Shown here: positions 16,327 to 64,000 of the stretch, in pieces
Numbering within the stretch: the stretch's first letter is position 1
Layout of the letters: each line of letters begins with the position of its first letter
From: Oscillatoria sp. CS-180
Lineage (GTDB): Bacteria; Cyanobacteriota; Cyanobacteriia; Phormidesmidales; Phormidesmidaceae
Length of the DNA stretch: 64,000 nucleotides
Assembly (NCBI RefSeq): GCF_028330965.1
Contig: NZ_JAQMUB010000019.1
Coordinates: 1 to 64,000, forward strand
Direction of reading: 5' to 3'
Made by a program: the position numbers and the translations under genes
Notes under the pieces: generated by a model
Seen by the model: the letters and a program-made list of their open reading frames with translations, nothing else
What the model was told of the DNA's origin: nothing
The model's database searches: none

Positions 16327-16333
16327 GGAGATT

Positions 16334-16443
16334 AGGACTTACGCACGGCCCCCTTGCATCCCCCAATCTTGGGGGACGTTGCATCCGGCTTCCCCATATT
16401 TGGGGATTAATGGGCCAAAGCCGGATGCAACTGCGTAAGTCCT
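16334..16443. mobile_element. MITE-1 copy 1 (110 bp, non-autonomous)
   Basis: Terminal inverted repeats AGGACTTACGCA / TGCGTAAGTCCT enclose CCCCC/GGGGG-rich internal hairpins and a second nested pair (GCATCCGGCTT / AAGCCGGATGC). The sequence differs at four positions from 25167-25276. If one base more is counted at each end, the flanks are GAGAT and AAGAT, a possible worn target duplication. No coding capacity. It lies directly behind recG and may form part of its 3' end. Confidence 0.85.
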
Positions 16444-16446
16444 GAA

Positions 16447-24780: not shown

Positions 24781-25166
24781 TACCCAGGCTGTGGTGCATT
24801 ACTGCGTGAATGCATCCTCCGTGAAAGGGCGGTTATGTCTAGGTTAGAAAGCCATTTGACAGCAACAATCTCCTGAATTTTCCCACTAGAAATCCCTTCC
24901 GCGAGGTCCAGGACGGCGGTTCGTCCTGGTCGAGGGGGTTTGGGGGCAATCGAAATGCCCCCAAGCAGCCTTCAAAACTCATCACCAACTGTTTCGCCTT
25001 ACTCCCCCATTCCCGCGCAAAGACAGTAACCATCTGCACAAACCATCACAAATTTCTCTTCCTGAAGATTAGCCTTCACCCCATTCAGCCAACCCCAACC
25101 CCATAGCTCTATTCCCTTGCTTTTGCGTCTTTCCCTTTGCAATCAGGGTTGCCTCCCAAAACTTGT
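24781..25166. other. Gene-free spacer inside the lipid cluster
   Basis: No gene. Two hairpins are visible: CCAGGACG/CGTCCTGG near 24912-24933 and GGGGGCA/TGCCCCC near 24950. The spacer separates the three overlapping lipid genes from the methyltransferase and ends at MITE-1 copy 2. Confidence 0.5.
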
Positions 25167-25276
25167 AGGACTTACGCGCGGCCCCCTTGCATCCCCCAAT
25201 TTTGGGGGACGTTGCATCCGGCTTCCCCATATTTGGGGATTCAGGGGCCAAAGCCGGATGCAACTGCGTAAGTCCT
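25167..25276. mobile_element. MITE-1 copy 2 (110 bp, non-autonomous)
   Basis: Same length and same TIR core as 16334-16443, with four differing bases. Counting one extra base at each end, the element is flanked by ACTTG on both sides (25161-25165 and 25278-25282), a clean 5-bp target duplication. It lies 38 bp upstream of the methyltransferase start. Confidence 0.88.
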
Positions 25277-25314
25277 GACTTGAAATGCTTGAACACGTCT
25301 TTGGACCAATCACC

Positions 25315-31001: not shown

Positions 31002-31970
31002 TCAGCTAGTGCGGTTTCTCAAAACCCTGAGGAGTTTAACGAAGTGCTCTGGAAGTGGAGCGATCGCAGTGACAGTCTTCCCCGTTGCAGGATGTCTCAA
31101 AGTGAGTCGTTCAGCGTGCAATGCTTGTCCAGGCAAGTTGACACCAACTGACCGTCCTGTTCCATACGTAGGATCGCTGACAATCGGATGCCCAATATGA
31201 GCACAGTGAACTCGAATCTGATGAGTTCGTCCCGTTTCTAGTCGAAATCGCATCAGCGTAAAATTGCCGAGTCGTTCTTCAACCTGCCAATGGGTCACAG
31301 CATAGCGCCCCCCTTTGAGAGGGGGAATAATGGCTTGTCGTTTGCGATCGTTCGGATGTCTCCCCGTAGGAGCATCAATTGTCCCTGCTTCCACACTAGG
31401 CGCACCATAAACAACCCCCAGATACTCTCGCCGGGCTGTCTTAGCCTTCATCTGAGCCTGTAAATCTTGATGGGCCAGATCTGTTTTAGCAACAACAATC
31501 GCTCCAGTTGTGTCTTTGTCCAACCGATGCACAATGCCAGGGCGCTCTACACCACCGATGCCTGTAAGTTGATCTCCACAATGTGCTAGCAACGCATTGA
31601 CCAACGTTCCATTCATATTCCCCGGGGCGGGGTGGACCACCAATCCAGCAGGTTTATTGACAATCACCATATGTTTGTCTTCATAGAGGATGTCTAGTGG
31701 AATATCCTCGGCAGTAATTTCTAGCGGTTTGTTAGCAGGAATGGTCACCGCAATTGTGTCGCCGACCTGCACACCCGCTTTTTTGTGAGTACAAACTGTG
31801 CCATTTAAATGGACGTATTCCCAATCGATAAGCTTCTGAATCCGATTGCGCGAGAGATTCTTGACATGGGCTGTGAGCCATCGGTCTAATCTCGGTGGCT
31901 CAGCTGTTTCGACCTTTAAATAAATCGTTTCGTCAGAGATGGGACTGTCTTGAACTCGATAAAGAGAGCT
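31002..31970 (-). CDS. RluD-family 23S rRNA pseudouridine synthase lacking a canonical start
   Basis: The catalytic domain is complete: the motif HRLDKDTTGAIVVAKT contains the nucleophilic Asp, followed by GRTHQIRVH. A canonical start would be the GTG at 31772, giving 256 residues, but that cuts off the S4 RNA-binding domain. Reading upstream in the same frame to 31970 gives PPRLDRWLTAHVKNLSRNRI, a clear S4 domain with the expected spacing. No ATG, GTG or TTG lies between the TAA at 31971-31973 and 31772. The frame is bounded by repeat copy C7. Either a rare start (for example ATT at 31925) is used, or the gene has lost its start. The enzyme family is certain; functionality is not. Confidence 0.82.
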   Translation of the reverse strand, partial: SSLYRVQDSPISDETIYLKVETAEPPRLDRWLTAHVKNLSRNRIQKLIDWEYVHLNGTVCTHKKAGVQVGDTIAVTIPANKPLEITAEDIPLDILYEDKHMVIVNKPAGLVVHPAPGNMNGTLVNALLAHCGDQLTGIGGVERPGIVHRLDKDTTGAIVVAKTDLAHQDLQAQMKAKTARREYLGVVYGAPSVEAGTIDAPTGRHPNDRKRQAIIPPLKGGRYAVTHWQVEERLGNFTLMRFRLETGRTHQIRVHCAHIGHPIVSDPTYGTGRSVGVNLPGQALHAERLTLRHPATGKTVTAIAPLPEHFVKLLRVLRNRTS

Positions 31971-32060
31971 TTAGTTGTCTAGGCTAGTGCACAATCTGGG
32001 TGCTTAGAGGCACTGCCAGAAGATTATCGTCTTGTCCTAACGGCACTAGCGGCGGTCACA
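31967..32060 (-). repeat. Dispersed repeat family C, copy 7, abutting the rluD-like frame
   Basis: On the minus strand it reads GTTAGGACAAGACG ... GTGCACTAGCCTAGACAACTAAAGCT. Its 3' end supplies the TAA stop at 31971-31973 that closes the rluD-like frame upstream. It is the only copy in contact with a gene. Confidence 0.75.
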
Positions 32061-32385
32061 GTAAAGATCTTAGGTCATTTGTCAGGGTCACCGGGATGAA
32101 CCGATCTAAGTCTTACAACCCAATGCTTATGAATCATTAAAGTTCAGTTCCACACGTCAGGGTTAAGGAGGCTAAGCTCATACTCCGCTGGTCAATCCCG
32201 ACTCGGTTAGACCGCTTATCACAATCCTAAGTCGCGATAGCCCATATCTCAACAAAATCTATGCCGCATGGCACGACAGGAACAGTCATAGTCGCTCAAT
32301 TGAAGCTTGAGTGGAACCAGCAAAATCCAACACTAGAAACGGCGTCTTGAAGTTAGAAGCAACGTCACCCGGCTCACGGCTATAC
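32061..32385. other. Gene-free stretch upstream of the rluD-like gene
   Basis: 325 bp with no supported gene; only frames below about 40 codons. It could contain promoter elements for the minus strand. Confidence 0.45.
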
Positions 32386-32528
32386 CTCAGAACTTGCAGT
32401 TGTCCCGACATTGCCTGGCCTGCCCCCCCTGCCCCCCAAATTTCGGGAGTTCTGAGATCGAAGTCCCCCAGAATTGGGGGATTGAGGGGGTAAATACAGG
32501 ATACCGATGTACTAGTACAAGATCTCAG
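32386..32528 (+). mobile_element. MITE-2 copy A (143 bp)
   Basis: Imperfect terminal inverted repeats CTCAGAACTTG / CAAGATCTCAG. It is flanked by a perfect 5-bp duplication TATAC (32381-32385 and 32529-32533). Internally it has GGGGG/CCCCC-rich hairpins. The inverse copy is at 63811-63954. No ORF of transposase type. Confidence 0.88.
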
Positions 32529-32578
32529 TATACGAATTTTGAGAGATTCTGTTGGGCGAAGTCTTCCTCGTCAGCAAC

Positions 32579-32608
32579 AAAAAAGCCTCCGGCCAAAGAC
32601 CGAAGGCT
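32579..32608 (-). terminator. Rho-independent terminator of the 32716-33456 gene
   Basis: On the minus strand AGCCTTCGGTC pairs with GGCCGGAGGCT around a short TTTG-containing loop, followed by TTTTTTG. It lies 108 bp past the stop. Confidence 0.8.
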
Positions 32609-32715
32609 ATAAATCAGGGTGCATCTACCATTCCACTTTTCTCACGTCTACAATCCTGTCCGGAAAAAATAGACCGTAATTTGAGATAAGATGCGGCAAC
32701 CCATAAAAGTCGTAT

Positions 32716-33456
32716 CTACCGAGTACCACTATCAGGACCTGGGAATTCTCCTGTCTCGATGTACTGAATTTGCTCTCTCAGCGACTCAGCTGCGAAAGGA
32801 TCTCCCTCTGCTTCGTAGATATCCGCAGCTCTCTGAAAATCGTCCACGATCGCCTCACGGGTATCCTCAGGCAAATCACTGGGCTCTTCTAAAAAATTAC
32901 CTTGTGCTTCTAAGTCTGCTTGCGCTTGACCAAAATAGGCGTCTGCTCGACCAAGATAGGGCTCAGGATTATCAGGCTCTAGCTCAATAGCTTCAGAATA
33001 GAGTGCGATCGCACCGGCAAAGTCCCCTGCTTGGATACTGGTTTGCGCTTCACTGTAGGCAATCTCGTAGGCAGTCGCCGGGCGTACAGAAATATCGAAA
33101 TCGCCACCTTCGCCGTCAAAGGATTCAGCTACGACAACGTAACTTCCTGAGGCATCAGCGTTGTAGACGATCTGAGAATTCAAAGTACCCGCAAAATCGT
33201 CGTTAAAAGCCACCTCTTCACCAGTAGGCCCAACGAGGGTAAGCACTGTATCGAAGTCTTCGCTCGTCATCGTAATGGTCACTGCATCGCCAGCTTCCAT
33301 TTCCAGAGGATATTCCTGCATCGCAGGCTCTATAGTCCCTGTTTCTTCCAAGAGCGTTTGGGCCATAGACTCACCCATCGTACCAATCAAGTAGCCCCCC
33401 GAAATCGTGATCGCCGCAGTCAAAAAAGCCGCAGTTCTCGAAAAAATATGCTTCAT
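32716..33456 (-). CDS. Secreted protein with PPC-like and TPR domains
   Basis: 246 residues. Signal peptide at the N-terminus (KHIFSRTAAFLTAAITIS, cleavage around AQT). Residues 36-125 resemble a bacterial pre-peptidase C-terminal (PPC) beta-sandwich (YPLEMEAGDAVTITMTSEDF, then YVVVAESFDGEGGDF). Residues 130-240 contain TPR-like helices (DFAGAIALYSEAIELEPDNP). AAGGA precedes the ATG. Probably a periplasmic or extracellular scaffold. The terminator at 32579-32608 closes the gene. Confidence 0.85.
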   Translation of the reverse strand: MKHIFSRTAAFLTAAITISGGYLIGTMGESMAQTLLEETGTIEPAMQEYPLEMEAGDAVTITMTSEDFDTVLTLVGPTGEEVAFNDDFAGTLNSQIVYNADASGSYVVVAESFDGEGGDFDISVRPATAYEIAYSEAQTSIQAGDFAGAIALYSEAIELEPDNPEPYLGRADAYFGQAQADLEAQGNFLEEPSDLPEDTREAIVDDFQRAADIYEAEGDPFAAESLREQIQYIETGEFPGPDSGTR

Positions 33457-63681: not shown

Positions 63682-64000
63682 GGCTACTCACGCTGTTCTT
63701 TGACGGTAGTGCCAATTGTGAACTTGGCACGCCCCTTTGGATTTTCTATAGCCCTGTGCAGCTTGGTTAAATCCATCTCAGTGTTTTAGGAGAGTAAGGA
63801 ATAGGGAATACTGAGATCTTGCCCTAGTACATCAGCATCCTGCATTTGCCCCCTTAAATCCCCTAAATTTGGGGGACTTCGATCTCAGAACCCCTCCAAA
63901 TTTGGGGGCAGGGGGGCCAGACCAGGCAATGTCGGGACAACTGCAAGATCTGAGGAATAGGGAATGCAAGGGGTGCTTGACGCAAGTACATGCCGCTATA
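63682..64000 (+). repeat. Dispersed repeat family R copy 3, split by MITE-2
   Basis: The repeat runs from about 63751 (TATAGCCCTGTGCAGCTTGG) to 63810 and resumes at 63955 to the window end (ACATGCCGCTATA). The middle is MITE-2 copy B. Outer ends TATAGC/GCTATA are inverted. Matches 11344-11438. The first 70 bp carry no recognised feature. Confidence 0.8.
63811..63954 (-). mobile_element. MITE-2 copy B (144 bp) inserted in repeat R
   Basis: Inverse orientation to 32386-32528 with the same internal sequence (for example GTTGTCCCGACATTGCCTGG on the minus strand). Flanked by GAATA on both sides (63806-63810 and 63955-63959), a perfect 5-bp target duplication. TIRs CTGAGATCTTG / CAAGATCTGAG. Confidence 0.9.

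Follow-up and report, generated by a model that had tools for sequence, protein, structure and literature searches.

The window analysed here, a stretch of 64,000 nucleotides from Oscillatoria sp. CS-180, carries on its minus strand an rluD-like gene whose reading frame is open from an AGC codon at 31970 to the stop codon at 31002–31004 (322 codons). A Pfam search matched this frame to the S4 domain (PF01479) at residues 27–73 (E 3.4e-4; 20.7 bits, slightly below the cut-off of 22.8) and to PF00849 (E 2.4e-31), and the latter includes HRLDKDTTG, which we take to be the catalytic Asp motif of the RluA family. The frame therefore shows an S4 domain, scoring just below its cut-off, followed by PseudoU_synth_2 with this motif. 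The best matches in the PDB are to RluD of Escherichia coli (1v9f, 1qyu and 7bl5); residues 26–318 of the 322-residue frame are aligned, so that the homology runs from the start of S4 to near the C-terminus of the window protein. This likeness is one of protein alignment, and the start codon is where the two genes would differ. Because the product stays below the cut-off of the NCBIfam RluD equivalog NF008385 (256.1 bits vs 351) and passes that of the RluA subfamily TIGR00005 (315.9 vs 192.7 bits), we class it as RluD-like within the RluA family and do not treat it as a proven RluD. One other match to the protein was found in the genome at E ≤ 0.001, an RluA-family gene that is 36% identical. 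Judged by its sequence, the window gene is an intact rluD-like gene, whose family includes the pseudouridine synthase of helix 69 in 23S rRNA.

The frame is unusual at its 5′ end. A preliminary description of this DNA had placed the S4 domain in frame upstream of the first canonical start, GTG 31772, had reported that no ATG, GTG or TTG lies between the S4 region and the TAA at 31971–31973, and had assigned this TAA to the end of a repeat copy. The Pfam match and a frame scan bear out the position of S4, which lies mostly upstream of the GTG; reading of the frame showed no ATG, GTG or TTG in frame from the TAA to GTG 31772, and matches of the repeat within the genome place the TAA inside its end. 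GTG 31772 lies 56 codons downstream of an ATC codon at 31940–31938 in the same frame, and the Pfam search did not report S4 (PF01479) for the product of this GTG. The nearest stops upstream of the ATC are, in the three frames, at −33, −41 and −46 nt relative to it, and from there to +59 the window has no ATG, GTG or TTG in any frame.

Upstream of the gene lies one copy of a dispersed repeat (Table 1). When 31967–32055 was compared with the same genome, it matched 20 places at E ≤ 0.001, its own copy included, and seven copies were compared. By eye the repeat is MITE-like: its ends (TATAGC...GCTATA) are almost palindromic, and stretches within it resemble hairpins. Between the repeat and the ATC are 26 nt of non-repeat sequence. 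The end of the repeat in the window falls where several relatives carry a −10-like element of rluD. Elsewhere in the window we noted two further repeat pairs, an inverted one at 32380–32490 and 63850–63960 (111 nt, 86% complementary) and a direct one at 16333–16445 and 25166–25278 (113 nt, 96% identical), as well as an Rfam match to NsiR1 (nitrogen stress-induced RNA 1) at 32577–32630 on the minus strand (50 bits vs a cut-off of 39). The NsiR1 match lies directly downstream of the gene at 32716–33456, overlaps a hairpin followed by T's, and may be the terminator of that gene.

Table 1 Features of the rluD-like locus, in window coordinates.
Feature	Position	Strand	Remark
rluD coding sequence read from ATC (S4 domain and pseudouridine synthase)	31002..31940	-	312 residues; residue 1 would be fMet if the reading is right
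Proposed near-cognate start codon ATC	31938..31940	-	ATC/ATT here in 34/38 clade genes
S4 RNA-binding domain	31752..31892	-	PF01479, just under cut-off; mostly lost with a start at GTG 31772
Pseudouridine synthase catalytic domain	31197..31673	-	PF00849, with HRLDKDTTGA motif
GTG, first canonical in-frame start	31770..31772	-	Behind most of S4; not taken as the start
In-frame TAA upstream of the open frame	31971..31973	-	Inside repeat end
Leader motif GAGTTCA	31951..31957	-	Family pattern G[CA][AG][CT]TCA; 14-22 nt before start
Weak -10-like hexamer TAAAGC	31968..31973	-	Inferred promoter position only; place of relatives' TGnTA
Copy of dispersed ~100 bp palindromic repeat family (AGCTTTAG...)	31967..32055		Boundary 26 nt before start codon

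We searched the GTDB order of the window for relatives of the gene and obtained matches in 58 of 63 genomes at E ≤ 1e-95. The 5′ ends were read in 57 loci; the fragmentary locus of G021 (L198) was viewed separately. An ATC (31 loci) or ATT (10 loci) lies 15–17 codons before the S4 motif RLDRW in 41 of the 57. The other 16 have neither codon there, and all but one of them (15/16) have a canonical in-frame codon within the 45 codons before RLDRW, G074 having none. For the 43 loci of 250 residues or more, a tree was built from the residues from RLDRW on and given a midpoint root for drawing only; it contains a clade of 38 rluD genes with support 100/98, which is defined without the start-codon position. 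Sixteen codons before RLDRW, 26 of the clade genes have ATC and 8 have ATT, one or the other in 34/38; G031 has ATT one codon later, and neither codon is present in G008, G074 and G078. On the tree, the genera g6 and g10 branch deepest within the clade and are without canonical starts. Another gene, that of G007 (g3), is labelled canonical on the tree, yet carries its own ATT Ser Glu.

In-frame stops bound the region from above. Upstream of the position, an in-frame stop without any canonical start is found in 17 of the 38 clade genes, and 11, the window's included, have a canonical start neither there nor before RLDRW. The stop may lie only 2–3 codons away, as in G005 (TAG CCC ATT), G028 (TAA GCC ATC) and G020 (TGA CCC CAA ATT). 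Outside the clade, G085 (g13) has a canonical ATG at the same place, directly after TGA. Among the observations that count against a near-cognate start, besides the 16 loci without ATC or ATT, 21/38 clade genes carry an in-frame ATG, GTG or TTG between the position and the nearest stop above it, and in several g1 genomes one of codons +7 to +9 is GTG or TTG, a possible start that would keep S4. The rluD gene resembles an infC-type gene in that many clade members lack a usable canonical start and a near-cognate codon is conserved across species.

As controls we read the starts of a nearby gene, glgB, and of the loci for initiation factor IF3 in relatives from the family and the class. All 27 anchored glgB loci have a canonical start (30 were given, 3 of them without the anchor), and none of the 27 has a stop without a canonical start upstream of the anchored codon, vs 17/38 for the rluD clade; this recurrence indicates that the observation in the window is more than chance. 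The first 30 IF3 loci comprised 28 of a paralogue A, each with a canonical codon upstream of the anchor (28/28), and 2 of a paralogue B without one. When 27 further, lower-scoring IF3 loci were taken as paralogue B (29 B loci in total, 27 of them anchored), 19/27 had no canonical start upstream and 8/27 had TTG. On reading, the start-like codon of paralogue B is ATC, ATT or ATA behind a GGAG or GAGG motif, as in the window's own genome, where it reads GGAGG AAACCGCC ATT; in about a third of the B loci the codon before it is GCC or GCT, as in many rluD genes. Because paralogue B mostly lacks canonical starts and glgB and paralogue A have them, the start test flags an infC-type gene and spares the other two.

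Some features of the IF3 loci are recorded here in their own right. Many genomes of the family, the window's included, carry at least two IF3 matches, one of the canonical-start type and one mostly of the ATC/ATT/ATA type (L071–L100, L233–L259), and in the g12 genomes searched (G016 and G023) the ATC/ATT/ATA-start type alone was found. The paralogue A copy of G003 (L098) has a TGA inside the matched stretch and its usual N-terminal MRSRNPRN cannot be read in frame; it was counted as canonical through a distant TTG.

Across the 38 clade genes the entropy of second codon positions is 0.94–1.79 bits for codons −10 to −1 vs 0.18–0.86 bits for codons 0 to 7, and third positions stay variable; in these alignments, coding constraint starts at the AUC/AUU codon. 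We also assembled a strict set of 37 genes picked for ATC or ATT at the exact place, from which g3, g13 and G031 were left out. Invariance of the codon in this set (ATC 28, ATT 9) is by construction, the count in the clade of 38 being free of that selection, and the set shows the same pattern of constraint from codon 1 onward. One of its members, G002 (L064; C122), has, as sequenced, rluD in two pieces, the frame being broken after 106 codons from the ATC. Comparison of the window with G003 gave pN 0.15 and pS 0.56 for codons 0–15 and pN 0.07 and pS 0.73 for codons 16–55; for many pairs, saturation of synonymous sites ruled out a dN/dS estimate. By these comparisons, codons 0–15 and the S4 part of the gene are under purifying selection.

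The DNA upstream of rluD is conserved as well, but not as protein. In the strict set, G[CA][AG][CT]TCA occurs 14–22 nt before the codon in 30/37 genes (shuffled mean 0.2), TGnTA 33–38 nt before it in 14/37 (shuffled mean 1.7) and TAnnnT 28–44 nt before it in 34/37 (shuffled mean 9.1); the shuffling was by mononucleotides, the sequences are related and the patterns were picked once the alignment had been seen, so that these figures describe conservation and are not probabilities. A Shine-Dalgarno-like motif of the GGAG type occurs 6–16 nt upstream in only 1/37 of the set (shuffled mean 3.6), and the Shine-Dalgarno support seen at the weak starts of infC paralogue B and of the Staphylococcus genes discussed below is thus not found at rluD. 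The base preceding the codon is C or T in 35/37 genes. We infer that TGnTA and TAnnnT represent a −10 element and that the transcript would start about 20 nt before the AUC; in the window the corresponding TAAAGC comes from the repeat end and is a poor match to a −10 element. The upstream ATGs of g12 overlap the −10-like element, and with such a transcript start they would lie outside the mRNA. An in-frame ATG at −13/−14 in g12 (MMDYRTPTAL) was considered as a general start and rejected: elsewhere in g12 it is out of frame or followed by an in-frame stop. From the conserved motif to the ATC the spacing varies by one base between g12 genomes, so that the frame of the upstream ATGs is not kept.

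Taken together, these comparisons make it very probable that the gene is intact and starts at a conserved near-cognate AUC (31940–31938, minus strand) that is ancestral in the clade. In our best reading, its product is the complete, S4-containing RluD-like protein made from this AUC. The account offered in the preliminary description was a different one, namely that the repeat had removed the original start and left either a rare start codon or a truncated enzyme without S4. Of these outcomes the rare start codon is strongly supported by the ATC or ATT conserved in relatives, and the truncated enzyme is not supported, since the S4 part is under purifying selection and the genome has no other close match to RluD. 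Insertion of the repeat as the cause, with a gene that now yields an S4-less protein from GTG 31772 or decays, could appeal to the TAA carried by the repeat end 26 nt from the ATC and to the presence of the GTG in frame. It is nonetheless highly unlikely, and we reject it: the ATC lies outside the repeat, purifying selection on S4 is seen in the lineage of the window itself, S4 goes unreported for the product of GTG 31772, and relatives without the repeat at rluD are likewise without a canonical start. When the repeat was searched against the rluD loci of relatives (flanks of up to ~1.5 kb), no match was found at E ≤ 1 except for a 23-base stretch in L029, and comparison of the 5′ end with relatives lacking the repeat, which the preliminary description had proposed as a check, speaks against repeat damage, the canonical start being missing in many of those too. 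The start is best read as an old, conserved non-AUG codon (AUC or AUU) of a cyanobacterial clade and not as the result of repeat damage.

Initiation could also take place elsewhere, or be read in another way. Ribosomes might start at a canonical codon upstream in a different frame and enter rluD by programmed frameshifting, as the conservation of the sequence just upstream of the codon and the out-of-frame ATG, GTG or TTG found near or farther up in several relatives would allow (19/37 of the 28-nt leaders of the strict set hold such a codon in some frame). The remaining 18/37 leaders hold none in any frame, the ATGs of g12 overlap the −10-like element, and in the window ATG, GTG and TTG are absent in all frames from the nearest upstream stops to +59; we reject frameshifting from an upstream canonical start for the window and give it very little chance as an explanation. 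It is somewhat easier to imagine, but still improbable, that translation begins at another non-canonical codon nearby, such as codon −1 (GCC/CCC) or Val codon 9 (GTN). Codon −1 is semi-conserved, [GC]C[CT] in 32/37 genes of the strict set, and Val9 is kept in 37/38 clade members and is GTG in 7/37 of the strict set; GTC is moreover given as the proven start of Streptomyces sigR (PMC5472188). Codon −1 is not, however, near-cognate and is GTT, CAA, AAG or ATC in 5/37, and a start at codon 9 would leave unexplained why codons 1–8 are constrained as protein. The least credible alternative, which we regard as extremely unlikely, is that the lineage reads AUC and AUU with a special initiator tRNA bearing a GAU anticodon. 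GAU-like loop patterns do occur in G004 and G013 among the 18 genomes of the family that were searched, in putative tRNAs. In this weak pattern test the window's genome has a match to GGGCTCATAACCC (CAU) and none to GGGCTGATAACCC, and the control genes use canonical starts.

The proposed AUC/AUU start has counterparts in other bacteria. One is infC, which is a gene of the translation apparatus, as is rluD, and has a conserved near-cognate AUN start (AUU, AUC or AUA). According to PMC5472188, the infC start is ATT in E. coli and ATC in Streptomyces, and IF3 represses the gene, an autoregulation. The infC paralogue B described above is preceded by a Shine-Dalgarno motif, whereas rluD is not, and infC controls itself, whereas the rluD product is an rRNA modification enzyme, so that IF3, if it controls rluD at all, would do so in trans. 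The same source presents sigR of Streptomyces as a further gene, beside infC, whose non-canonical start is conserved and misannotated in genomes; its start is GTC and its repression by IF3 was shown by experiment (PMC5472188), whereas rluD has AUC or AUU and its regulation is inferred. Conserved weak AUN starts that limit expression are also reported for cvfC1 (AUU) and ccpN (AUA) of Staphylococcus, where reporters carrying them reached about 10% of the expression from AUG in poor medium (PMC13009471). The Staphylococcus sites have extended Shine-Dalgarno pairing (PMC13009471); rluD has none. For pcnB of E. coli, the AUU start is taken from a title cited in the same paper (PMC13009471). A literature search by titles and the beginnings of abstracts found, among the matches listed, no rluD with an AUC or AUU start, subscription journals and preprints lying mostly outside the search. 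The kind of start is known (infC, pcnB, sigR, cvfC1 and ccpN), and rluD is an added member that is distinct by its missing Shine-Dalgarno motif.

How such a start would work can be outlined from what is known of IF3. Ribosomes would initiate at the AUC at 31940–31938 on a short leader of ~20 nt, counted from the −10-like element. The initiator fMet-tRNA would match AUC or AUU at bases one and two and mismatch at the third, and initiation should therefore be inefficient and, like that of infC, liable to be rejected by IF3; this factor is described as accepting nothing but Watson-Crick pairing at positions one and two and as excluding weak third pairs (PMC10158994). Translation of rluD would then probably be weak and sensitive to IF3, and IF3 would set the output of RluD. 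As reported in PMC1190176, the three pseudouridines in helix 69 of E. coli are formed by RluD, and the binding site of IF3 on the 30S subunit is the region that is occupied by the helix 69 loop in 70S ribosomes. These two reports, together with the AUC/AUU-type starts that rluD shares with one infC paralogue, suggest a loop that we put forward only tentatively and consider possible but doubtful. Free IF3 would repress rluD and that infC paralogue together and so control an rRNA modification enzyme in trans, and through the weak start, subunit-joining capacity, IF3 and the maturation of helix 69, which displaces IF3, would be linked in a closed loop.

The case also shows that an anomaly seen in a single genome next to a repeat can be an ancestral feature. 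Gene callers limited to ATG, GTG and TTG would misplace the start of rluD or lose its S4 domain. Few genes with conserved AUC or AUU starts have been described, and a ribosome maturation gene that would use such a start across a cyanobacterial clade without a Shine-Dalgarno motif extends the class; for control by IF3 beyond infC, rluD offers a candidate that can be tested directly.
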